NCBI RefSeq assembly: GCF_000993805.1
Contig: NZ_CP009961.1
Coordinates: 334,001 to 398,000, forward strand
Direction: 5' to 3'
Length of the DNA: 64,000 nucleotides
Origin: Thermofilum uzonense
GTDB taxonomy: Archaea; Thermoproteota; Thermoprotei; Thermofilales; Thermofilaceae
Shown here piece after piece: positions 15,094 through 42,735 of this stretch. The notes under the pieces were generated by a model that was not told the DNA's origin, did no database searches, and saw nothing but the letters and a program-made list of their open reading frames with translations. The position numbers and the translations under genes are program-made. Numbering within the stretch: the first letter of the stretch is position 1; each line of letters opens with the position of its first letter.

Positions 15094-15855
15094 CTAGGCT
15101 TTCCGAGACGGGATGTCGACTAAGGAAAGCGTCTGCCTGAGCTTCAAGTAAATCTGCCTTATCTCCTCTACAAGTGCTTCAAGATACTCTTCAGCCTTCT
15201 CAGGACTAAAGACGACCTCACCCTCTGTTTCAGAGTAGTTGATTATGGTCCCTGGCAACGGATATGCTCGCACGCCAGCTGAGGCGGTGAAGATCGCATC
15301 GCTACTATACTGGCTTTTCTTGACGATGTTTGGTCGGAAGAGTTCAATGAGCGCAGTCTCGTCCGTAGCCGCGTGTCCCCCCTCCTTCCCCAAGTACTTT
15401 TTAGTTAATCCCCTGTCTCGTGCAAGTGTCCACCAGTCGATAAGGAGTGTCGCAAGCCTGTGGTCAAGCCAAGCTCTCCGAGCAGCGTTGTCTAAAGCGA
15501 GAGTGTTGCCCCCATGGCCGTTTAGTATCAATGCTATTCTAATGCCATGAAATGCAATGCTCTCAAGAACGTCGTAGACAATGTTTTCCAAGCTCTCAGG
15601 CCTCACTCTTATAGACCCTGGATAACCATGTAAGCTGTTCGTGACACCGTAGTTTAAGGTTGGGAGGATAAGAGCGTTGATTTTCACCGCGAGTTTCTCA
15701 GCTATCAATTCAGGTATATAGTTGTCAGTGCCGAGAGGAAGGTGAGGGCCGTGAGGCTCGATAGTTCCTATGGGAAAAATAACTGTGTCTATTCCTTCGC
15801 TGAGAAGCTTCCCGACCTCAACATAAGTGAGTTCGGCTAACCTGCGACTTGCCAC
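15094..15855 (-). CDS. Creatininase-family amidohydrolase
   Basis: A cytoplasmic metalloenzyme of 253 residues. Metal-binding signatures of the creatininase superfamily are all present: GTIEPHGPHLPLGTD near residue 30, ILNGHGGNT near 110 and GGHAATDETALIELF near 160. The family covers creatinine amidohydrolase, the formamidopyrimidine deformylase ArfB of archaeal flavin/F420 synthesis, and mycofactocin MftE. Archaeal members are more likely ArfB-like than true creatininases, but sequence alone does not settle this. It starts at GTG and is separated by about 50 bases from the ABC transporter genes on the same strand. Confidence 0.85.
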   Translation of the reverse strand: MASRRLAELTYVEVGKLLSEGIDTVIFPIGTIEPHGPHLPLGTDNYIPELIAEKLAVKINALILPTLNYGVTNSLHGYPGSIRVRPESLENIVYDVLESIAFHGIRIALILNGHGGNTLALDNAARRAWLDHRLATLLIDWWTLARDRGLTKKYLGKEGGHAATDETALIELFRPNIVKKSQYSSDAIFTASAGVRAYPLPGTIINYSETEGEVVFSPEKAEEYLEALVEEIRQIYLKLRQTLSLVDIPSRKA

Positions 15856-15908: not shown

Positions 15909-17003
15909 TTAAGCGAAGCTTTCCTCCTCCCAGCCCGTAACCGGGAAGACGCTAACCTCTGAAGGCTTTATGGCGAGTCTTATTTTCTGACCTGAGCTGA
16001 GTTCTAGCGCTGGATCAAGAAGGGCTGTTATCCTCTGATTTCCAACTCTAACCTTAACCTGGTTGAACATGCCTATGAACATCTGGATCTCGACTATGCC
16101 CTCTAGTGCGTTAGACTCGGATGCATCAACTTTAAAGTCCTCGGTTTTCATTATGGCAGCGACCTTGTCTCCCTCTCTCACGGTGTGTCCAGGTGCGATA
16201 AACCCCTCAAGCGACTGTCCATCAAAGGACACCTTTACTTTTTCTCCTGATATTTCCCTGGCAATCCCTACAAGGTACGTGCTTCTCCCAATAAATGTTG
16301 CAACAAAGAGGTTGTTAGGTTTAGAATATATCTCCTTCGGGGTGCCTACCTGGAGGATTTTACCTTTGTTCATCACCGCTATACGGTCAGCCAGGCTCAT
16401 GGCTTCCTCCTGGTCATGAGTCACATATACTGTCGTTATCCCAAGCGATGACTGTATCCTCTTTATCTCTTCACGCATCTCGATTCTCAGTTTAGCGTCA
16501 AGGTTACTAAGCGGCTCATCGAGCAGGAGAACCTTCGGCTCCACTACTAAAGCTCTCGCTAGGGCTACCCGTTGCTGTTGCCCCCCGCTTAATTGCAGAG
16601 GATACCTGTCCTCCAAGCCCTCAAGCCTTACTAGTTTCAGAGCATCCCTAACCCTCCTCTCTATATCCTCGTCGCTGAGTCCAAGCTGTTTCCGTCTAAT
16701 CTTTAGACCATAGGCGACATTCTCGAAGACCGTCATGTGGGGCCATAGCGCATAGTTCTGGAACACCATAGCCGTATTCCTCTGGTAGGGCTTCACGAAT
16801 GTAACGTCTTGATCTGCAAAGAAGACCTTACCCTCCTCGGGGACCTCGAAGCCAGCAATGATGCGCAGGAGGGTTGTCTTCCCGCATCCACTAGGGCCTA
16901 GCATTGTGAAGAGCTCTCCATCGCGGATCTCTAGCGAGACATTGTCTAAAGCCTTAACCTTCCCGTACACCTTTGTCACATTCAAGATCTTTATCCACAC
17001 CAT
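15909..17003 (-). CDS. ABC importer ATPase (FbpC/PotA type)
   Basis: The 364-residue ATPase has Walker [12 protein letters not shown], the Q-loop in [15 protein letters not shown], the signature [15 protein letters not shown], Walker [17 protein letters not shown] and the switch His in [13 protein letters not shown]-terminal TOBE-type regulatory domain runs from about residue 240 to the end. This is the layout of iron(III), spermidine, thiamine and phosphonate importers. The gene starts at ATG three bases after the permease stop, so it forms one unit with the fused permease upstream. The cargo is not evident. Confidence 0.93.
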
Positions 17004-17006
17004 AGC

Positions 17007-19205
17007 TCACACCCCGATGAACGCATACCTCTGCTTTAATACTCCTACAACAATTAACATTGCGACCAGCTGTATAAATATAAGCAGCACTCCCATAGCA
17101 GCGGCGATTTGAACACCTATCGGCGACCCTCCCTTATAGACATTCATCATATAGTATGTCATTGGCGCCTGTGATGGGTTAAAGTTCCCGATCGTTATGC
17201 TCGTGCTGACCTCCGTAGCCATGTAAATAAAGCCCAGTACCGCTCCGCTGAAAATATAGGAGAGGATGAAGGGCAACACGACACCAAAAACAACCTTAGC
17301 CCTGGTAGCCCCCAGGTTAAGCGCGGCCTCCTCCAAGCCGACGTGAACCTGCTGAAAGCCCGCATAGACGGATCGAACCACGTAGGGCAGTTTCCTCACA
17401 CTGTAGGAGACTACCAGCACTACCCAGGCTTGGAAAGCCCCAATCGAGGCAGGGTCTAGAGGAGTTCCAGAGAATATAGTTGTGAAGAAGTAGTAATAGC
17501 CCAGGGCTATCACTAATCCAGGGATAGCTATAGGCACGGTTGCAAGAGTATCAAGTAGGTTGGAAAGCCATGATACACGTATCCTGCTCACGCCATAGCC
17601 GACCATTACTGCTACGACGACAGCCAGTATAACGGAGAGTGCAGCATAGATTAAGGTGTTCCTGATATAAGTGAATACACCAGGGTCGGTGAACAATCTC
17701 TCGAAATAATCGAGTGTAAAGCTTCCCAAGTTTATCTCGAAGCCTCTTGAAGGCATGACATTGAAGGCTAACAGGAAAACACCTATCTGTGGAAAAGCAG
17801 TTAATAGTACTAGGGGGAAGACGATAAGATACACTACGAGCTTCCCCAGGGGACCGAGTGGACGAGCTCGGGAAACCAGTCTGCCTCCACGACTGATCAT
17901 CGCGTAGGAACGCATCCCCACATAGTTCCTTATGGCAAGGAAGCCCATAACGGCGATAAAAAGCATAACTATACCGAGAGCCGCAGATTCAGGTGATACT
18001 ATTCCTGTCTGCGTCATGAATCCCCTAAATATCTGAGCACTCATAAGATTCCACTCCTGGAAGATTAGAGGCGCTCCGACATCCTCTAGGCTGAAAATAT
18101 AAACGATTATAGCTCCGGCAACTATTCCTGGAAGAGCTAGTGGGAAGGTGACGCTCCTGAAGAGGGTGAAGCCCCTAGCTCCAAGGTTTTCTGCTTGTTC
18201 CTCGGTGCTTGGGTCAACGTTAAGGAAGGCACTGTAAGCGTTGAGGTAGACTATCGGATAGAAGGAGATTATTTGTGCTAAGGCGACTCCTACCAAGCCG
18301 TCCAGTCTAAGCTTCCATCCAAATAGACTCTGGGTTACGAGGGAGATTGGACCATACTCGCTGAAAAGGATCTTGACTACATAAGAGTTTACAAAGGGGG
18401 TCACGAATAATGGGACAAGGGACAGTATTCTGAGGAAATCCTTGCCTGGGAAACTATACCTTGCAAGTATGAAAGCCATAATGATTCCTATGGCTGTAGC
18501 TGCCGAGGTCACGAAGAGGGAGAGTATCAGGCTGTTAACAAGCGCTCCATAGTTCAGACCTTTGATAACATAGAGCGTCTCGTTTCCGAGCTGAACAGCA
18601 AAAGCGAACTGCTCCCCTGGGAGAGTTTCCAGCCTAACATACTCGCGGGCGGAGAAGATTCTCTGAAAGTTGGAGTACCATGCACCACCTGAGGGTGCCC
18701 TGAACGCATTAACGAGAACAAAGAGTATGGGCGAGACAAGGAATACTATTAGGAAACTAGAACCAAAAACTATGAAGACCCACAACAGAGGGTCTAGCTC
18801 GTAAAGAGTTGTCCGGATTCTTCTCGTGAGAGAGACAATACCTTTCCTGGCTTCACGTGTCCTCTTAAAGGATTGAATTTTTTCGTAGAGAAATCCTCCG
18901 GCCGCTGTTGCAAGTAAGGGTGTGAGAAGAAACGCGACGCCGCGTGCGATTCCATGAGCACCAATCGAGATAAGGAAAAAATCATAAAGTAGAGTGAAGA
19001 TTGCTAGGAAGCTTAGCCCTGAACTGAATTTAATCCACCTGTAGTCGTAGCCAAGCTTGTATAATATTACAGCCGAGGCTATGCACGCGATCCACAATAT
19101 TGGATCAACAAGGTTGAGAATAGCTGGAGTGATGAAAAACGTAAGAAGATATGCAATCGACAGGACGGCTCCGACCGTCCAAAGGGTTCCTCTCCTGATT
19201 CTCAC
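17007..19205 (-). CDS. ABC importer permease, two fused FbpB-type domains
   Basis: A 732-residue integral membrane protein holding two binding-protein-dependent permease domains in one chain, as in FbpB/iron-type transporters. EAA-loop motifs occur twice: EEQAENLGARGFTLFRSVTFPLALPG in the first half (read in part) and EEAALNLGATRAKVVF in the second. About 120 N-terminal residues add several further helices. The start is GTG with AGGTG seven bases upstream, and a TATA-like GAATATAAAGAG lies about 40 bases ahead of it, so the permease-ATPase pair may have its own promoter apart from the binding-protein gene. It pairs with the binding protein and ATPase on either side. Confidence 0.92.
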   Translation of the reverse strand: MRIRRGTLWTVGAVLSIAYLLTFFITPAILNLVDPILWIACIASAVILYKLGYDYRWIKFSSGLSFLAIFTLLYDFFLISIGAHGIARGVAFLLTPLLATAAGGFLYEKIQSFKRTREARKGIVSLTRRIRTTLYELDPLLWVFIVFGSSFLIVFLVSPILFVLVNAFRAPSGGAWYSNFQRIFSAREYVRLETLPGEQFAFAVQLGNETLYVIKGLNYGALVNSLILSLFVTSAATAIGIIMAFILARYSFPGKDFLRILSLVPLFVTPFVNSYVVKILFSEYGPISLVTQSLFGWKLRLDGLVGVALAQIISFYPIVYLNAYSAFLNVDPSTEEQAENLGARGFTLFRSVTFPLALPGIVAGAIIVYIFSLEDVGAPLIFQEWNLMSAQIFRGFMTQTGIVSPESAALGIVMLFIAVMGFLAIRNYVGMRSYAMISRGGRLVSRARPLGPLGKLVVYLIVFPLVLLTAFPQIGVFLLAFNVMPSRGFEINLGSFTLDYFERLFTDPGVFTYIRNTLIYAALSVILAVVVAVMVGYGVSRIRVSWLSNLLDTLATVPIAIPGLVIALGYYYFFTTIFSGTPLDPASIGAFQAWVVLVVSYSVRKLPYVVRSVYAGFQQVHVGLEEAALNLGATRAKVVFGVVLPFILSYIFSGAVLGFIYMATEVSTSITIGNFNPSQAPMTYYMMNVYKGGSPIGVQIAAAMGVLLIFIQLVAMLIVVGVLKQRYAFIGV

Positions 19206-19350: not shown

Positions 19351-20901
19351 CTAGGAGCCGGTCATCTGTTTGAGAAGTGATTGTGTATTGAGGTATCTTT
19401 GTCTGGCCCCTTCGCGCCACTGATTCATCAAGTCCTGGTATATTGAGGGGTTATTAGCCAATTGGTTGCTGATATTTATTGCGTAGTCGATGGTGAATGT
19501 AGTTTTCTTCTTTGTTAATGGGTCAGTGAATATTATTGGGGCAGTTAGAGAGTCAACAAGCTTATTGAATTGGTCCTTAGTTATCTTACCGTTGAGGTAT
19601 GCCTGGGCGATCTGAGCCCAAACGGGTTGGAGGTCGTCGTGCGCGTCTACAAGTGTTGCTTTAAAGTAGTCTACGACGGCAGTAACCCATAGAGAGGATA
19701 GCGTCTCATTAAAGTTGATTCCACCAGCGTTCTGCACGTCTTCAAGGGCTTTCTTCAAGTCAGGTCTCTGAGCTCCTTGTGGAGTATCAAAGACCTTCGG
19801 GTTGATCGGAAGCCTGTTAATATTCGGGTCAAGCCATACTAGCTGCCCTCCAGTCTCGTTGAGAACCCAGGCGACAAAAACCGCCGCCTCCCTTGGATGG
19901 CTTGCACCCTTAAGTACGGCTATTGGGTCGGCATTTACTATGCTTTCACCGTTGGGTATGATGTATAGACAGGCAGGGTTTTGTTGTTGTGCAGTGTAGC
20001 CGTAGAAGTCTATTGTTGTCCCGACAGCTATGTCTCCTCTTATAACTGCATCTCTGACGTCGCTGCTACCGCTGTAAATCTTAGCGTTAGCTGCGAGAAG
20101 TGTTAATGCTTTCCAGCCTGCGTCCCATCCGTATGCTTGAAGAATGATCTCGAACATTCTAGTGTTACTTGTACTCATCGTTGGGTCAGCTGTGCCTACA
20201 AGTGGTACTGCTGGGAGGTTTTTAGCGTAGATAGGGTTCCCGAGATCTGACCACTTCTTTGGCATGGGTAGCCCGTATTTGCTTAAGAGATCTTTGTTCA
20301 CCGTAAAGCCGAAACTGCTTATACTGGCGCCTATCCAATGGATAAGGCCGTCGTTTCCCACCTTATAAGTTGGGGCCCCTGCGATAGTTTTGGGTATCTT
20401 TGCAAGCTCCTGCTTCACCAGGCTAAACTCGGGTATCTTACTCTCGTCTACAGGCTCAATGAGTCCCTGCTCGTCTATAAGGTTAAAGAGAGTAGGGCCT
20501 CCGCCCCACGCTACATCTATCCCCCTACCCTTGGAGACTGCATTTTTGATGTATTCAGGCCATTGCTCTGCATTCACAGGCAAGAATACTATATTTACAA
20601 TGTTGTACTTTTTAGCTACGTTACTGTTAAGGAACATTCTCCTGGTGAGATCCTGAATTGTTTGCTCATGCCTTGTGATTACATAGAGCGTGACCCCGCT
20701 TGGCTGTGTCGGCTGTGTGGGTTGTGATGGTTGTGTTGGTTGTTGTGGTTGTGAGGGCTGTGTTGGCTGCGATGGCTGTGATGGTTGTTGTTGAGACGGC
20801 GGAGCCTGCTGAACGGGTGGTTTTTGTAGGAACAGGAAAGCGGCTCCAATAACTCCGATAAGAAGTACCACGGCGGCTAAAATAACGATGTTCTTGTTCA
20901 T
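19351..20901 (-). CDS. ABC importer solute-binding protein, membrane-anchored
   Basis: A 516-residue extracellular binding protein. Residues 5-25 form an N-terminal membrane anchor with no lipobox Cys; residues 31-68 are a Pro/Gln/Ser/Thr linker; the rest is a type-2 periplasmic-binding fold of the iron/spermidine/phosphonate group (GVTLYVITRHEQTIQDLTRR, VAWGGGPTLFNLIDEQGLIE, GDIAVGTTIDFYGYTAQ). The linker DNA is identical over 115 bp to the linker of the phosphoesterase at 22186-24279. A TATA-like GGATTTAAGC and GTGAT precede the ATG, so it has its own promoter. It feeds the permease and ATPase downstream. Ligand unknown; nearby phosphoesterase suggests a phosphate-containing or released product, which is inference. 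Confidence 0.9.
   Translation of the reverse strand: MNKNIVILAAVVLLIGVIGAAFLFLQKPPVQQAPPSQQQPSQPSQPTQPSQPQQPTQPSQPTQPTQPSGVTLYVITRHEQTIQDLTRRMFLNSNVAKKYNIVNIVFLPVNAEQWPEYIKNAVSKGRGIDVAWGGGPTLFNLIDEQGLIEPVDESKIPEFSLVKQELAKIPKTIAGAPTYKVGNDGLIHWIGASISSFGFTVNKDLLSKYGLPMPKKWSDLGNPIYAKNLPAVPLVGTADPTMSTSNTRMFEIILQAYGWDAGWKALTLLAANAKIYSGSSDVRDAVIRGDIAVGTTIDFYGYTAQQQNPACLYIIPNGESIVNADPIAVLKGASHPREAAVFVAWVLNETGGQLVWLDPNINRLPINPKVFDTPQGAQRPDLKKALEDVQNAGGINFNETLSSLWVTAVVDYFKATLVDAHDDLQPVWAQIAQAYLNGKITKDQFNKLVDSLTAPIIFTDPLTKKKTTFTIDYAINISNQLANNPSIYQDLMNQWREGARQRYLNTQSLLKQMTGS
20697..20811 (-). repeat. 115-bp perfect direct repeat, copy 1 (binding-protein linker)
   Basis: Compared by eye base by base, this stretch is identical to 22299-22413. 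It encodes the peptide starting QQAPPSQQQPSQPSQPTQPS in the same reading frame in both genes. Internally it is built from short TGTGG/TGGTTG-type units that encode PSQ and PTQ steps. Confidence 0.95.
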
Positions 20902-20990
20902 TTTATATCACTATCGAGTATCCAGCATATATGTTGCTTAAATCCTTAACCTGGCTTACCATATAAGAAATATACGAGAAAAAGTTTTAC

Positions 20991-22145
20991 TTAACTAGTC
21001 TTGTGCTTGTGGAGGAATACTAACGCGAGAGCTACTAGGACAAGTATGGCCTCCACTATTGAAATTATCATCAGCGTGTTAACAGTACTTGTTAGGGAGT
21101 TAAGTGAGCTGGTCAGGCTGTCAACCTTGCTTGATAGGCTGTCGACGCTTGATTTGAGCCCTTGGATCTGGCTAGCCTGGGTATTAATTGTTCCAGCCAT
21201 TGCTTGTGTATTCTGTGCGAGTTGTGCGATTGCGGCCTGGGTCGGAGCCTCAGTTAACACGTATACCCACCACCTGAAGAGATTGGTCACAAATGTTGGG
21301 CCGTCTAAATCTTTACCGTAATAGCTTGAAGCCCACGCGGGCTCATAGTCGCCGTAAATGCTTTCGCCTGAGACAACTATGAGAACGTTCTTGTCAGGCC
21401 AGTATTCAGCGGCATACATGACAAAGTCGTGATCACCTGTTCCCTTGCCGTAACTCATGAGGTCGTAGACGTAGGGAGTCGGGGGAGTGTTGTCGCCCAT
21501 GTAGCTTTTATGAGCCCAAACGAGACGTATTAATCCGGGAAATGTCTCCTTTACAGGGTCATGGTATTTGCCCTGGGCGTCCTGCCAGATGATACAGCCT
21601 GGCCCATGCATGAGTATGGGTAGGGTTATATCTCTCTTCAGAAGATCGGTTCTGAGGCCAGGATAGTTGTCGGGCTCTACGAATGTGAGCATTCTGTAAT
21701 AGGCTTTTGCTGTCACGTCAGGGTTATCGCTGTAGACAGCCCCGTGCTCTAGCCTGAGCTTTGTTCCTATTCCTGCTAGGAGGTCGTTTAGCTGGAGTAT
21801 TGTTTTACCGCCAGGACCATAGTCGCTGTCTCCTGCTACATAGAGAACCTTGTTGCCTGTGTTAAGCCATGCCTTAATTGCTGCGATTTCGTCTGGACTG
21901 AACGCGACTGTAGGTTGCCCCAGTAATAGTATATCAACGTCTTTTAGTGTTGAGGGGGTTATAGGCTCTTTTATAATCTTCCATGTTACGAAGGTTATGT
22001 TCCCCATTATATAGTTTAGATATTTGTTGCTTTCACCGTGACCTAAATCGGCGGCAACGATAACTGGCTGAGCGGAAATGTTGTGCGAGAAAGCAATAAT
22101 TGCCATCAAGAACAGTAATATGATTAATGTTTTTTCTGTTTTCAT
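20991..22145 (-). CDS. Secreted ThuA/GATase-like protein with coiled-coil stalk and C-terminal anchor
   Basis: A 384-residue surface protein. A signal peptide (ILLFLMAIIAFSHNISA) leads to an alpha/beta domain with DVDILLLGQPTVAFSPDEIAAI and NKVLYVAGDSDYGPGG, resembling ThuA/IFT52-type, catalytically inactive amidotransferase-like folds. Residues 300-350 are a Ser/Leu heptad coiled coil (GLKSSVDSLSSKVDSLTSSL), then one transmembrane helix and HKHKTS. The start is ATG 22145; a TTG just before is possible. It lies 40 bases after the phosphoesterase and ahead of the binding protein. The stalk suggests it projects from the membrane. Exact function unknown. Confidence 0.7.
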   Translation of the reverse strand: MKTEKTLIILLFLMAIIAFSHNISAQPVIVAADLGHGESNKYLNYIMGNITFVTWKIIKEPITPSTLKDVDILLLGQPTVAFSPDEIAAIKAWLNTGNKVLYVAGDSDYGPGGKTILQLNDLLAGIGTKLRLEHGAVYSDNPDVTAKAYYRMLTFVEPDNYPGLRTDLLKRDITLPILMHGPGCIIWQDAQGKYHDPVKETFPGLIRLVWAHKSYMGDNTPPTPYVYDLMSYGKGTGDHDFVMYAAEYWPDKNVLIVVSGESIYGDYEPAWASSYYGKDLDGPTFVTNLFRWWVYVLTEAPTQAAIAQLAQNTQAMAGTINTQASQIQGLKSSVDSLSSKVDSLTSSLNSLTSTVNTLMIISIVEAILVLVALALVFLHKHKTS

Positions 22146-22185
22146 CAATGATGATAGGGCTAAAAAACTTATAAAATTTACCTTT

Positions 22186-24279
22186 TCACTTTTTCCTCCT
22201 AGTGTATTTCGTGAGACCCAGCAACAGTATAAAGAGGGCTGCAGCTATTAGGACTCCAAGCAGGATTGTTGCAAAGTTCAAGGATTCAGGCTTGGCTTCG
22301 CTTGGCTGTGTCGGCTGTGTGGGTTGTGATGGTTGTGTTGGTTGTTGTGGTTGTGAGGGCTGTGTTGGCTGCGATGGCTGTGATGGTTGTTGTTGAGACG
22401 GCGGAGCCTGCTGTGCTGAATACAAGGTAAATTCTTTTGTGGCCTCGTGGCCAGCATAGTCTATGACCTTTACTACGAGTTTAGCTTCGCCAGCGTTTTC
22501 AGGGATTTTTCCTTGGAGTTTAAATGTCAGGGAGTTCAAGGGGTCAAGAATCGTCCCGGGAGTATAGAGTTGTGGGCTTAGTGCATACTCATTGTTTCCT
22601 ACTACCAGTTTTGCCGTGAAGTTCGCTACACCCCATTCCTCGTCGCCCGCGCTTATGTATGCCTGGAAGGAGGCTCCAGGCACGGGTTTCTCAGGTATAA
22701 GCATTTTTAGATTTATAGTTGGAGGTGTGGTATCAGGGGCGTTGTTCAGTGCTACGACGAGTTTACTCTGATATGGGAGTTTTATTCTAACAGCTAGGAA
22801 GAGCTTGTCCCCCATCACTAACTTGTCTGTGACGCTGAAGAGTGAGCCTCCAGTTGACTCAATTACCTTTGCCGAGAAGTCACCGTTCCAGGGTAGACAC
22901 CAGACCATGGTGTTTTCCAAATTGAGGTAGTTTAGCTTGTTTTCAAGTGTTAATACGTATGCATGCGGCCACTGATACAAGGATGTGGGTGTAAACACCT
23001 GGTTTGAGACGCCAAGGTTATTTCTAGGCGGATAGATTCCGACAGGGATGGAGTTTTGTGCAAGCTTACTTGAGTCGTTTGCGAAGCCTATGAAGGTTGG
23101 AGGCTTCACGGGGAAGTCTATTAGTCCAGATTTGAGGTCGAGCAAGTAGAAGTCTAGCCCATCGTATATTGCTGAGCCCATGCCCAGGGTAGTTATCGTT
23201 AAAAAGTATGTAGTCTTGCCTGTGCGGGTACTGGTATACTTGACAAAAACGTCTCTGTGCACGTGTCCAGACAAGACATAGTTAACGCCGTTTTCCTCAA
23301 CTATCTTCAGGAAATACCGGGTGATGTTCATATTCCCGCTCCAAGAGGAGTATATTGGGGAGTTCGGGTTCTTCTCTGGATCGTATGGCGCTATCACTTT
23401 TGCGTCATCGTAGGTTGTCTTTAACTCGCCCTGGTAGTAGAATACGGGGTGATGAACAAGTATCACTTTTACTGGTATCTGGGAATACTGCTTTAACAGT
23501 CCTTCAGCCCATCGTAGTTGCTCCAAAGTCGGGTAGCCCTGCTCGTACGAGTACAGCCCGATTATCAGTAGCTTGTCCGCTATAACCCTATACCATGTCG
23601 TGCTCCCGAAGTACACAAGCCATGCGTCAGGAGGAGTATCGTGATTTCCCGGGATCGCTAGAATAGGATACGAGTAGAGAAAGGCGAGCTCATATGAGTA
23701 TGCCCATCTATACTGTTGCTCGCTGGCTGTGTCGGCCACATCACCTGTGTCAATGATGAAGTCTGGCCCAAGGAGGCCCGACATAACGTAGCCCGCCAGC
23801 CTGTTCATGTCGCCAACAATCACGTCAGGTTGTCCGGCCCCGTAGTGCTGGTCGCTTACGTGTACTATTTTAAGCGTCGTCTTGGAAGTGTCGTAGACCC
23901 ATACACTCCTAGGAATCTCTGTTTTAGACTGTCCTACAAGTACAAGATCGTAGAGGCCAGGCTTAACGTCGCCGGGAATCGTTACTGTTACGACTCCGCT
24001 CGAATAGGAGACCGTTACGGTGTAGTTTGCAACCACTAGTTTTTCTCCGTTTAGGAAGACAGACCATATGTAACCTGTCTTTGGCTGGTCCTGCGTGCCG
24101 GCTAGCTTGAACGAGAAGCTCTTTCCCGGTAAGACTATAGCTGGTTTACCCATGCCCAGGTCAGGGGAGACGGATACCCGTGATAGCGACGGGATTCCTG
24201 GTAATGAGGGTTGAGAGGCGGCGATGAGAGAATAAGAGAGCATTAATGCTAAAAGCACAAGGGTTGTTTTTTTCTCCAT
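22186..24279 (-). CDS. Secreted, membrane-anchored metallophosphoesterase
   Basis: A 697-residue calcineurin-like phosphoesterase. It has a signal peptide, an N-terminal beta-sandwich (about 35-130), and then the dimetal site: VSDQH (Asp143, His145), DTGD (Asp180), GNHD (212-214), VHHP and GHVH. A second beta domain covers about 500-620. A Pro/Gln linker at about 623-660 precedes a C-terminal transmembrane helix and KYTRRKK. The enzyme would face outside. Its linker DNA is identical to that of the binding protein. A TATA-like ATTAAGAATATTAA lies just ahead of the ATG. Substrate unknown: phosphodiester, nucleotide or phosphoprotein are all possible. Confidence 0.88.
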   Translation of the reverse strand: MEKKTTLVLLALMLSYSLIAASQPSLPGIPSLSRVSVSPDLGMGKPAIVLPGKSFSFKLAGTQDQPKTGYIWSVFLNGEKLVVANYTVTVSYSSGVVTVTIPGDVKPGLYDLVLVGQSKTEIPRSVWVYDTSKTTLKIVHVSDQHYGAGQPDVIVGDMNRLAGYVMSGLLGPDFIIDTGDVADTASEQQYRWAYSYELAFLYSYPILAIPGNHDTPPDAWLVYFGSTTWYRVIADKLLIIGLYSYEQGYPTLEQLRWAEGLLKQYSQIPVKVILVHHPVFYYQGELKTTYDDAKVIAPYDPEKNPNSPIYSSWSGNMNITRYFLKIVEENGVNYVLSGHVHRDVFVKYTSTRTGKTTYFLTITTLGMGSAIYDGLDFYLLDLKSGLIDFPVKPPTFIGFANDSSKLAQNSIPVGIYPPRNNLGVSNQVFTPTSLYQWPHAYVLTLENKLNYLNLENTMVWCLPWNGDFSAKVIESTGGSLFSVTDKLVMGDKLFLAVRIKLPYQSKLVVALNNAPDTTPPTINLKMLIPEKPVPGASFQAYISAGDEEWGVANFTAKLVVGNNEYALSPQLYTPGTILDPLNSLTFKLQGKIPENAGEAKLVVKVIDYAGHEATKEFTLYSAQQAPPSQQQPSQPSQPTQPSQPQQPTQPSQPTQPTQPSEAKPESLNFATILLGVLIAAALFILLLGLTKYTRRKK
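22299..22413 (-). repeat. 115-bp perfect direct repeat, copy 2 (phosphoesterase linker)
   Basis: Identical to 20697-20811 and in the same orientation and frame, 1,602 bases apart. Similarity stops abruptly at both ends, where each gene resumes its own sequence, so this is duplicated DNA and not just similar amino-acid composition. Confidence 0.95.
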
Positions 24280-37887: not shown

Positions 37888-38811
37888 ATGGATAATACGA
37901 CGTTCAAGAGGGTTTTACTATTCACTCTTCTAGCCTATCTCCTCGCTTTTCTAGTCGACTTCATTCTTTTTGCGACGAAAGGCTATGAGCACCGTCTCGC
38001 ACTTAACTTGTGGGCTTTTTCCAGAATGTGGATTGTCACTATAGCAACCATTATCTCTCTCAGGGTTCTCGGTGAGAATGCGTGGTCGACGTTAAAGAGC
38101 CATTTGGCAATACACAAGAGATCCATTATTCTTTTCCTAGCTGCTCCCTTATTTGTATATGTTGCTCTTGGGGTCTACATCGGTATAGCTGAGCCACTAG
38201 GGCTCTTCGACTTCAATTCTTATGTAAACAAAATACGAGAAGTCCTGGGAAGCCAGCTCCCGCAATTAATGGAGGGAGATCTACGAGATCTTGCTGAAAG
38301 GATCGCGTATTCGACTGTTACGGTCAATGCATATATAGCAGCCATAACCATTAACGCGTTTTTCGCCCTTGGAGAAGAAATCGGTTGGAGGGGATACCTG
38401 TACCAGCAGCTCGGCTACACACCTAACCTTAAAAACACTATAATAATCGGTACGATTTGGGCATTGTGGCATGCACCTGCAATCCTCTTACTAGGATACA
38501 ATTACCCTGCTAGTAGAATATTTGGGCTCTTGTTCTTTATCCCTCTCGGCATAGTTCTCACATATCCACTCCTACTATTCACAAGTCATGCGAAAAGCGT
38601 CTTACCAGCGGCTTCACTGCACGGAGCATTCAACGCGCTATGGCCTCTAACCCTAATAGCATCTAATCTCCCAGCCTTCCAGCGAGAAACGTTACTTGGC
38701 CTAGGATTACTTGGGATACTCTCACTAATCATTGCCGATCTATTCCTTTACGTTGTTCTACACCTGAAAAGACTACACCTCCCGCACCCTGGAGGGTTGG
38801 GGTTTCCTTAG
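37888..38811 (+). CDS. CPBP-family intramembrane metalloprotease
   Basis: A 307-residue polytopic protein with seven or eight helices. The CPBP (CAAX protease/bacteriocin-processing) motifs are ALGEEIGWRGYL (Glu163, Glu164, Arg168), ALWHAPAI (His195) and LHGAFNAL. These form the intramembrane metal site of Rce1-like proteases. Such proteins process lipopeptides or give immunity to secreted peptides. The last dozen residues (LHLPHPGGLGFP) are encoded by DNA resembling the flanking repeat at 42628, so the native C-terminus may have been replaced when the repeat arrived. Confidence 0.85.
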   Translation: MDNTTFKRVLLFTLLAYLLAFLVDFILFATKGYEHRLALNLWAFSRMWIVTIATIISLRVLGENAWSTLKSHLAIHKRSIILFLAAPLFVYVALGVYIGIAEPLGLFDFNSYVNKIREVLGSQLPQLMEGDLRDLAERIAYSTVTVNAYIAAITINAFFALGEEIGWRGYLYQQLGYTPNLKNTIIIGTIWALWHAPAILLLGYNYPASRIFGLLFFIPLGIVLTYPLLLFTSHAKSVLPAASLHGAFNALWPLTLIASNLPAFQRETLLGLGLLGILSLIIADLFLYVVLHLKRLHLPHPGGLGFP

Positions 38812-38882
38812 GGCGGGTCACGGGTTTGTTGATTACCGCCCTCACCTTCACTACTTCACAGCTGGTGGCTGATAGACACCCC
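38777..38882 (+). repeat. Direct repeat A bordering the restriction-modification island
   Basis: The 72-base core 38811-38882 matches 42664-42735 at 70 of 72 positions, and weaker similarity extends to about 38777. The core contains a GGGCGG/ACCGCCC hairpin and a small CAGC-TGGTG-GCTG hairpin; both mismatches fall outside the stems. The rest of 38883-39025 shows no gene, only a short minus-strand frame that would encode a hydrophobic stretch (WLIDIFVFLILNAFLPWIIY) and looks like a gene remnant. Confidence 0.85.
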
Positions 38883-39025: not shown

Positions 39026-42000
39026 TTATCTATAGTCTAGGAGTGTATTAGTTCCCTTTACACTTAACAACTCCACAACTAGCCTATCAATCTCGTTCAA
39101 CAAATCTCTCAGGTTTTCTCTAATTGTCGCTCTCAGCCGGCCCATTTCCTGCGGCGTTAGATAGCTCCTTTCCGCCAGACTCTCGTCGTAGCCCAGACTT
39201 TGCAGAACCTCTTTTAGCAATCCCTTGCAGACACTCTCCCTGGCAGTCCTGCCAAGCTCTGCGAGCTTTATATGGCGCTCGTCCATAGGATTCAACCTGG
39301 GTATGGGGAACTCAAGTGGTTTTTTGTGGAAGTGTCTTGCGCCAAATTCTCCCTTTGTTTGAAACGGCTTCACTAGTCTATCCAGCACCGGCGAGTTCAG
39401 TGCGGCGGCCAAGTAATCCGCCTCCTCCAAGCTGTTCACATGTGCTACATAAAGCGTATGATCGATAATTATGTCTCTCAATTCCAGCTTAACATCTCCC
39501 GCCAGTGTTTTAACCGTTATGTCTTGCGGCCCTACGGGAACGACTGCCGCCGTTAAATAAGTGCCGGATGTGTTGTACACTACGCGGTATTTCGCAGCCG
39601 GGTCGTGCGACGTCAGCTTGTTCTGGTAATTCAACCACTCGTAGATGCTCGCCCGCTCCTTCTTCCTCCCTCTGTACTTCTCCCACAGTCTCTGCGCCTC
39701 CTCCATCCTCTGCGCCATGTAGCCGTGGCCTCTGCCCCTGAGGGCGTCGGGCGCCAGGAGGGCGTACCCGCGGCCCCGCGGCTCGATGGGCAAAACGGCT
39801 ATCGAGGGTTGGAGGTAGCAGAATGGCACCAACTCGCTGGATGTCAGCACAGCATACAGGTAAATCATCTCCACTGGTCTCTGCGCTATGGCCAGCTGCA
39901 ACGCCTTCGCCTCTTTGCGCTCTACCGCCCGCTTAGAAGACCTCACGATAGCTAACTCTTCGCCGACGACGCCGACTACATCCACGAAAAATATCGGTCG
40001 CGGAACGACCGTTGCGCCTTCCTTGAACCTTTCGTAGTAGTAGGAGCGGGCGGTTTTGATCTCCGGCAGCTGCACGTAGCTCCACGCGCTCCTCTCGCCG
40101 CTTGTGTTTAGGAAGAGATCGCGGCGCTCGTACCTGAGGGCCGCGTCCCCGAGGCTCAGCGTTTTTTGCCTGTCCTCCGGCAATCTGCCGCTCACTACGG
40201 TGGCAGGGATCGGGTACCGCACTCCCCCCTCCCTCTCCTTCTTCGCGATGATGGCGCACGCCGGCACGTAGAAGAGCGGCGAGACCTTCTCGAGGTCTAT
40301 CACCTCCAGGAACGTGTAGCTTATACGCGAGACCTTGCCCGTCCGTAGGTTGTGATGCTGATCCGCACTGAATACGGAGCGCGGCATCACGAACCCCACG
40401 GCTCCCCCCTCCTTCAGGTACATGTCCAGCGCCCTCGCCAGGAACAGGGCCGCCATCTCCATTTGGGTGATTAATTCGTCCTTCGTGGTCAGCTGGTAGT
40501 AGTCTTTAATCAGTGGTTTGATCACCTCCTCCTGGTATTTCGTGTCGGCTATAAAGCGGTAAGAGAGCCACGGCGGGTTGCCGACCACGCAGTCGAACGT
40601 ACCGGAGTACGCCTCCGGTACGATGTAGCTCTCCACAATAGAGACCCATATGGAGTCTCTTCCAAGCCTCTTCAAAGAGAGGAGGGTATCGTAAAAGTCC
40701 GCCATCACCGCGGCCTCTGCCTCCGAGAGGATCGCTCTGAAGCTCTCAGCAGCGTGCTCCTTGGGCATCTCCCTGTCCAGGAGATTTTGCAGCTCTTCCA
40801 TGGCCGGCTTTATCTTCCCGGCTGCCAATTTGGGGACGACGAACGTGTCCACCGAGGTGTCTATAACCACCGTCGGCACTACCTGATTCTTGACGAGTGT
40901 GCTCGTTTCGCTGTAGCTTGCGGGGGCGATGGAGTTGGCGAGGTATACGGGTATCTCGATGTCCCTGTCGCCCTTGTGCTTAAGCACGCGGATGCTGGCT
41001 AGCGCTATGAGGTAGTTGGTCCTCGCCGTGAGGAGCGCCAGCGCGTCTATGTCGAAACCTACAACGTTCTGGGTGATGAGTTGAAGTGTCTCTCTGGCTG
41101 CCTCGTCCGAGATGGAGCCGTTAAATTTCCGATTCAGGTATTCGCCCAGCCTCTGTATGTACAGCACCAGGAAGGTGCCGGTGCCCACGCCGGGGTCTAG
41201 GATCCTCTTGCGCAGGGGAGCGCGCCAGTCCTCTGCCCCCTCCCTGAGCATGTTCTCCACTGTCAGCCCCAGTTTGTCGAGCACTAGTTCGGCCAGCCAG
41301 TCGGGCGTGGTGTATATGCCGAGTTTCTGCCTCACCTGTCTCCGCGGCACCAACTCCTCGTACAGCACCTTAAACACGTCGCGGGCGCGCGAGGGGCTCA
41401 GTTCAAGCGCCTCCACGTCGAACTCGGCAAGCCTCTCCACAACCCCCCTCACCGCCTTATACACCTCAGCATCCCACGCGTCTATATACCAACTGTAGAG
41501 CTGGCCCTCTAGCAGGTTCCTAACGCCGTACCAGGCCATGGGACTGCCCTGCTCAAGCCTCGCTAGAGCCTCCCTAAGCCTGTCTGACTCCCCTGCACCT
41601 TTTCGGAGCTCATCCATAAAGGAGGAAATCGCGGAACCGTAGAATCCCTTCCGCGCCTCGCGTACTTGAGCGTCCTCGCCTTGTGAGGAAATTTCTGATT
41701 TTGAGAACCTGCTTGCCACCTCAGCGGCCAGCATCTTAAGGATGAGGGCGTAGTAGGTCTGTATGGCGAAGAAAAGCCTGGAGCCGTCCACACCCCTTTC
41801 TTCAATTCCGTACATCTCGGCTACCTCAGACACCTCGGCTCCCGCCCCTGGATATGTCTGAGAGACAAGCTTTACCCACTCTTTGTATAGATCCTCGGCT
41901 CTCCCGCTTATATTTTTCAGTTTATTGTAAAAGGTCTTCACAGCTTCTTTAGCTATCCCGCTTCCGTAGCCGAATTCAGCGGAGAGAGTGGCGGCGTCGA

Positions 42001-42334
42001 GACTTTTGCGCCAGGAGGCGGTGATGTGCTGTACAATAAGCCTCACGGAATCCTCATTAATGTTAAGGAGATCTGTAACTTCTAGCCTTCCGCTGTCCAC
42101 GTTGTATTTCGCGAACATGACCCTCACCCCGTCGGTTATGACGCCGGCGATGACAGGGCTCAGTTTCTTTTGCTGTATCTGATTGAGTATCGCCTTTACA
42201 TTCTCATCGTTCAGCAGGGCCGGTATGTACTTCTCGGTTACCTGCTTCTTCGCCTCCTCTCTGACGCTCTCGCTGGCAAGGCCTGGGTAGGGCCTCTTAA
42301 ACTCGAAAAAAAACCATGCCGTAGTATGCGTCAA
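39026..42334 (-). CDS. Type IIG restriction-modification enzyme, main part (frameshifted)
   Basis: This piece holds the methyltransferase and specificity parts of a fused restriction-modification protein. AdoMet motif I is DPGVGTGTFLV (about residue 379), and catalytic motif IV is NPPW (about 585), as in N6-adenine methylases. The last 400 residues should be the target-recognition region. The apparent N-terminus MTHTTAWFFF is an artefact: from EFKRPYPGL onward the frame continues the upstream 88-residue ORF, with one extra T in a T8 tract at 42306-42313. Corrected, the protein is about 1,178 residues. DNA here is much richer in G+C than its surroundings (49 of 60 bases in the line from 39721), which suggests horizontal transfer. 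Confidence 0.88.
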   Translation of the reverse strand: MTHTTAWFFFEFKRPYPGLASESVREEAKKQVTEKYIPALLNDENVKAILNQIQQKKLSPVIAGVITDGVRVMFAKYNVDSGRLEVTDLLNINEDSVRLIVQHITASWRKSLDAATLSAEFGYGSGIAKEAVKTFYNKLKNISGRAEDLYKEWVKLVSQTYPGAGAEVSEVAEMYGIEERGVDGSRLFFAIQTYYALILKMLAAEVASRFSKSEISSQGEDAQVREARKGFYGSAISSFMDELRKGAGESDRLREALARLEQGSPMAWYGVRNLLEGQLYSWYIDAWDAEVYKAVRGVVERLAEFDVEALELSPSRARDVFKVLYEELVPRRQVRQKLGIYTTPDWLAELVLDKLGLTVENMLREGAEDWRAPLRKRILDPGVGTGTFLVLYIQRLGEYLNRKFNGSISDEAARETLQLITQNVVGFDIDALALLTARTNYLIALASIRVLKHKGDRDIEIPVYLANSIAPASYSETSTLVKNQVVPTVVIDTSVDTFVVPKLAAGKIKPAMEELQNLLDREMPKEHAAESFRAILSEAEAAVMADFYDTLLSLKRLGRDSIWVSIVESYIVPEAYSGTFDCVVGNPPWLSYRFIADTKYQEEVIKPLIKDYYQLTTKDELITQMEMAALFLARALDMYLKEGGAVGFVMPRSVFSADQHHNLRTGKVSRISYTFLEVIDLEKVSPLFYVPACAIIAKKEREGGVRYPIPATVVSGRLPEDRQKTLSLGDAALRYERRDLFLNTSGERSAWSYVQLPEIKTARSYYYERFKEGATVVPRPIFFVDVVGVVGEELAIVRSSKRAVERKEAKALQLAIAQRPVEMIYLYAVLTSSELVPFCYLQPSIAVLPIEPRGRGYALLAPDALRGRGHGYMAQRMEEAQRLWEKYRGRKKERASIYEWLNYQNKLTSHDPAAKYRVVYNTSGTYLTAAVVPVGPQDITVKTLAGDVKLELRDIIIDHTLYVAHVNSLEEADYLAAALNSPVLDRLVKPFQTKGEFGARHFHKKPLEFPIPRLNPMDERHIKLAELGRTARESVCKGLLKEVLQSLGYDESLAERSYLTPQEMGRLRATIRENLRDLLNEIDRLVVELLSVKGTNTLLDYR

Positions 42335-42627: not shown

Positions 42628-42735
42628 CTTCTTCCGCACTCTGAATGGTGGGGGTTTTCGTTTGGGCGGGTCACGGGTTTGTTGTTTACCGCCCTCGCCT
42701 TCACTACTTCACAGCTGGTGGCTGATAGACACCCC
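42628..42735 (+). repeat. Direct repeat B bordering the restriction-modification island
   Basis: Second copy of the repeat at 38777-38882, in the same orientation, 3,853 bases away. It lies just upstream of the restriction-modification promoter, so the two copies frame the island. On the minus strand it directly follows a short reading frame that may be a tnpB remnant. The stretch from 42850 to 43127 is otherwise empty apart from the protoglobin leader. Confidence 0.85.

Follow-up and report, generated by a model that had tools for sequence, protein, structure and literature searches.

We have found that two unrelated surface-protein genes in one cluster of Thermofilum uzonense, those of a secreted phosphoesterase (MPE) and of an ABC-importer solute-binding protein (SBP), carry an identical 115-bp stretch of linker DNA. 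This repeat is likely to stem from the latest of repeated short-tract gene conversions between the linkers of MPE and SBP, which lie in stalks of matched length. Among relatives, the linkers are repeatedly alike within a genome and different between genomes, the likeness is specific to this gene pair, the copies are inverted in two species, and one polarity of copying is seen. The window means here the whole stretch of DNA that was analysed (64,000 nt); all coordinates are positions in it, and all genes of the cluster lie on its reverse strand.

Gene Cluster

The MPE gene (22186–24279) encodes a protein of 697 aa, which is assigned to the calcineurin-like phosphoesterases on the basis of a match to PF00149 Metallophos (3.4e-13) over the cut-off and of DTGD, GNHD and GHVHR positions that are invariant in the alignment. 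From the N- to the C-terminus the protein consists of a signal peptide, the catalytic domain, a further C-terminal region, a P/Q linker and a C-terminal membrane anchor, the last at approximately 22213–22278 (hydrophobic segment NFATILLGVLIAAALFILLLG). The SBP gene (19351–20901; 516 aa; SBP_bac_1, 1.9e-19) encodes an N-terminal membrane anchor at approximately 20824–20886 (hydrophobic segment VILAAVVLLIGVIGAAFLFL), a P/Q linker and the binding domain. Between these genes lies that of MID (20991–22148; 385 aa), an open reading frame whose protein has a signal peptide, a flavodoxin/GATase-like globular domain, a helical stalk and a C-terminal membrane anchor; its PF09822 match is below the cut-off, and a fold search turned up flavodoxin/GATase-like folds only, with no hit at E < 0.001.

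The same cluster contains a fused double ABC permease (17007–19205; PF00528 in two stretches) and an ABC ATPase (15909–17003; PF00005, 5.1e-41), and the presence of SBP, permease and ATPase together identifies an importer of the Fe/polyamine/2-aminoethylphosphonate superfamily. SBP matches SBP_bac_1/6/8, and its nearest solved relatives are chains 8x1a and 6wce (Fe(III)- and pyridoxal-phosphate-binding proteins). The cluster resembles ABC importers of this type in the binding-protein family and in having a fused permease and an ATPase alongside, whereas the stalked phosphoesterase and MID are additions to that plan. Assignment as a 2-aminoethylphosphonate importer (phnS2/PhnU2/PhnT2) was rejected, since the scores fell under the curated cut-offs (50.7 against 392.75, 111.9 against 593.25 and 374.6 against 457.7 bits). 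A creatininase-family hydrolase gene (15094–15855; PF02633, 2e-48) follows directly after the transporter genes, and a similar gene is also found near the same cluster in one congener (G005, locus L065).

Elsewhere in the window, an 84-nt direct repeat (94% identity; 38799–38882 and 42652–42735) flanks a gene for an Eco57I-like restriction-modification protein of 1,102 aa (39026–42334). The left copy extends over the 3' end of an upstream gene, and the pair looks like the integration site of the defence gene.

The Repeat in the Window

The two copies, at 22299–22413 in the MPE gene and 20697–20811 in the SBP gene, form a maximal exact direct repeat of 115 nt without extension on either flank, and they are 1,602 nt apart. 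The repeat encodes QQAPPSQQQPSQPSQPTQPSQPQQPTQPSQPTQPTQPS, and both copies begin at codon phase 0. Identity, common frame, linker placement and unrelatedness of the genes on either side had all been claimed in the preliminary description, and all are borne out: the open reading frames, together with the PF00149 and SBP_bac_1 matches, place the linker at the C-terminal side of the phosphoesterase and at the N-terminal side of the binding protein, and the two proteins are unlike outside it.

The units of the linkers are 9-bp XQP or PT repeats, a composition favourable to the idea that simple repeats slipped independently and converged on the same DNA. When 1,500 pairs of independent (XQP)n linkers were simulated with the codon use of the window linkers, the longest shared run was 33 nt, against 115 nt of irregular sequence in the window; the linkers of different genomes do not match each other either, and such convergence is hardly credible. 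Given the same amino acids, the probability of identical codons throughout the 115 bp is ~1e-12, and chance is excluded as the source of the identity. Short repeats can be mis-assembled, but the copies here have unique flanks in a genome assembled as a single contig of 1,611,988 bases, and separate assemblies of relatives show imperfect linker pairs of their own, so that we give practically no credence to an assembly artefact.

Linker Sharing in Relatives

We compared the window species (G000) with its six congeners (G001–G006) and with further genomes of the class, one genome per species being used. MPE and SBP orthologues are present in all six congeners, and the MPE, MID and SBP genes stand side by side in five of them (G001, G003, G004, G005 and G006), G002 being fragmented. 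In nearly all relatives both the MPE and the SBP gene carry linkers, and wherever long linkers were compared among the congeners, the closest DNA to the MPE linker is the SBP linker from that same genome, with local DNA scores of 114 (G000), 83 (G001), 38 (G003) and 25 (G004). Over 27 genomes of the class, pairing of linkers from the same genome exceeds shuffled pairing (p = 5e-5), and this holds without G000 and G001.

Strong sharing was found in four genomes: 115 of 115 bp (100%) in G000, 98% of 86 bp, including an exact run of 68 nt, in G001, 92% of 104 bp in G034, and 94% of 103 bp in G043. The last two represent a genus of another family, for which "Pyrobaculum-like" is a putative working label. 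The four cases therefore span two families, and in each the linkers are alike within the genome and unlike those of the other genomes, which is the pattern of concerted evolution; G003 and G004 show weak sharing. Homologues carrying both linkers at ordinary divergence, which would have spoken against the claim of recent copying or ongoing conversion made in the preliminary description, are not the picture that emerges, as several homologues have linkers that are shared inside one genome and unlike in another. Conversion is indeed the best account, while a single recent copy is not, since the sharing recurs over two families. A single recent event, in which the linker was duplicated into the second gene without recurrence, would explain the zero differences in the window species; as a full account it is refuted by the different sequences shared in G001, G034 and G043 and opposed by the linkers in both genes of nearly all relatives, and we regard it as very improbable.

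In G034 and G043 the SBP gene runs on the other strand. The linker copies there are 3.1–3.5 kb apart and inverted, an orientation that speaks against simple slippage at replication and against a duplication in tandem. The direction of transfer can be read in one sister pair: the shared motif is present in both genes of G034, and in its sister G037 it is present in the MPE gene and absent from the SBP gene. The simplest reading, by parsimony from this one pair, is that in the lineage of G034 the SBP linker was copied from the MPE gene, a non-reciprocal transfer.

DNA searches of the own genome gave no further strong linker copies in G000, G001, G034 or G043; only the two copies exist in the first three, and in G043 there are in addition weaker repeats within the MPE and SBP linkers themselves. 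A mobile or dispersed repeat is ruled out by these whole-genome searches. In about 20 of the 27 genomes the two linkers do not clearly share DNA, and conversion is therefore sporadic, with length matching (see below) independent of it. Two linkers of unusual composition were also seen: the SBP linker of G004 (L067) has an internal duplication, PPANQTQQP occurring twice and being common also to the MPE linker, and the MPE linker of G024 (L079) is mostly polyglutamine.

The preliminary description had further proposed that recombination between the copies would delete 1,602 bp and produce an in-frame fusion of the two genes. On paper this is right, because both copies are at codon phase 0 and the reading frame would be kept through an MPE-linker-SBP product. 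Among 61 genomes, no open frame joining MPE and SBP and no deleted form was found, and in the Pyrobaculum-like genus such a deletion is not possible because the copies are inverted. As the deletion would strip away MID and both membrane anchors, a cost is more likely than a function.

Stalks of Matched Length

The stalks of MPE, MID and SBP, taken by anchored measures, are 49/59/44 aa in G000, 58/64/48 in G001, 45/66/41 in G003 and 50/66/43 in G004, and they are 17/11/16 in G005 and 14/12/8 in G006; in the latter two species only short remnants of the MPE and SBP linkers are left, and MID lacks its coiled coil. Class-wide, the range is from 5/13/8 aa (G020) to 105/115/75 aa (G043). Spearman coefficients between the three stalk lengths are 0.96, 0.95 and 0.92 (24–27 genomes), and independent contrasts on the SBP-core tree give r of 0.95–0.96, or 0.85–0.90 without the genus Thermofilum, although four to six of the sister contrasts have opposite signs.

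The MID stalk and anchor (residues 301–379; 21012–21248) are modelled by AlphaFold2 as one continuous helix of 79 residues passing through the membrane, with moderate confidence (mean pLDDT 64), and the length match would therefore join a helix with disordered linkers. At the standard rise of 0.1485 nm per helical residue, the match implies ~0.23 nm per residue for SBP linkers and ~0.18 nm for MPE linkers, values plausible for extended disordered chains. The coil-derived stalk heights are 1.6–17 nm, which fits within the space of ~25 nm under the S-layer of Thermoproteus tenax (PMC5744192).

Three genomes show departures from the usual construction. In G029 (L113), MID has a Thr-rich (Thr/Val-rich) linker in place of the coiled coil, like the linkers of its partners. 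In G038 (L115), the orthologous SBP has a Thr-rich stalk of similar length and its anchor at the C-terminus, not the N-terminus. The MID gene of G042 (L106, 3291–4514) has a frame break inside the coiled coil, the coil and anchor continuing in another frame, which is either a frameshift mutation or a sequence error.

One explanation without selection is that nearby, similar P/Q- or P/T-rich DNA simply recombines, the length match being a side effect. It agrees with the distance of 1.6–3.5 kb between the linker copies and with the distant linker of a sugar-type SBP in the same genome, which is not homogenised, and it can still fully explain the shared DNA alone. The length match is a different matter: the MID coiled coil has no homology to the linkers, but its length follows that of each (r2 0.91–0.92), the stalks of G029 are matched though its MPE gene is ~50 kb away, and lengths are matched without linker sharing in the majority of genomes. 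As an account of the whole, neutral conversion is thus rather unlikely.

Stalk Change between Two Sister Species

G001 and G006 are sisters whose MPE and SBP cores are ~94% identical, and they differ in all three stalks (58 and 14 aa for MPE, 64 and 12 for MID, 48 and 8 for SBP). Third-position identity between them is 77–96% in the cores and falls to 23–62% in patches, with better conserved islands between, over the stretch between the C-terminus of MPE and the N-terminus of SBP, MID included; across this same block G006 is also unlike G005. Judging from these identities, G006 probably acquired the block, with its three short stalks, through recombination. Three separate stalk losses in G006 were considered and rejected, because the block is mosaic and foreign-looking, and one or a few recombination events may suffice. 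If the block entered in this way, the number of independent stalk changes within Thermofilum may be small, and it is for this reason that the class-wide contrasts matter.

Other Binding Proteins of the Same Cells

Stalk length could also be set for every surface protein by the spacing of the S-layer, with MPE, MID and SBP following a general trend. The 25-nm space in T. tenax (PMC5744192) is in keeping with such cell-wide control, and so is the behaviour of an SBP paralogue (SBP2) of the Pyrobaculum-like genus, whose short C-terminal stalk co-varies with the operon stalks (rho 0.89, n = 9). Against it, the operon stalks of Thermofilum vary by a factor of 3 to 6, but the sugar-type SBP linker has 37–39 aa in G000, G001, G005 and G006 and SBP_bac_5 linkers are ~10 aa throughout; in the Pyrobaculum-like genus, too, SBP_bac_5 linkers do not clearly follow the operon stalks (rho 0.32, n = 6). 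Over all genomes the correlation for SBP_bac_5 linkers is moderate (rho 0.60, n = 12, the lengths for G051, 30, and G001, 10, having been set by eye). From this value and that for SBP2, the length trend may be in part common to the whole cell; that S-layer spacing explains the whole is improbable, somewhat more so than neutral conversion.

In the same Thermofilum cells, the stalks of other binding proteins do not change in step with the operon stalks, and this suggests a surface assembly matched in height. We tentatively propose, at a little under even chances, that MPE, MID and SBP form such a putative assembly, in which selection acts jointly on the lengths of the stalks and ectopic conversion is one route by which the match is restored. 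The three proteins would act in concert, at a common height over the membrane: MPE may dephosphorylate, cleave or trim an extracellular substrate, SBP would capture the product, permease and ATPase would import it, and MID would have a putative assisting role. Homologous recombination between short, similar, neighbouring low-complexity linker tracts, presumably non-reciprocal, would homogenise the linkers of MPE and SBP in each species, and copying between the genes would offer a ready way of resetting a stalk to the length of its partner. The MID helix, which could not be copied from the linkers, would adjust by gain or loss of coil or by replacement of the whole block.

Relation to Known Systems

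Binding proteins of T. tenax (Thermoproteales) have been described with an N- or C-terminal transmembrane anchor joined via a Ser/Thr- or Ser/Gln-rich linker (PMC3189178), and SBP shares with them the design of anchor, linker and binding domain. The passages on these linkers treat them protein by protein and say nothing of linker DNA in common with a neighbouring enzyme gene or of lengths matched among three proteins, both of which are seen here. As in the concerted evolution of gene families, copies within a genome are closer to each other than to orthologues; here, in contrast, the genes are not homologous and only a low-complexity stalk of ~100 bp is homogenised. We found no report of linker sharing between unrelated genes or of matched stalk lengths in the open-licence literature.

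Disordered linkers are usually taken as filler, but in this cluster linker length can be predicted from the coiled coil of a neighbour (r2 ~0.91), and linker DNA passes between unrelated genes. If this should prove general, stalk length would become a predictor of surface proteins that work together under the archaeal S-layer, and the cluster would show in nature how gene conversion can shape a physical dimension of a complex.
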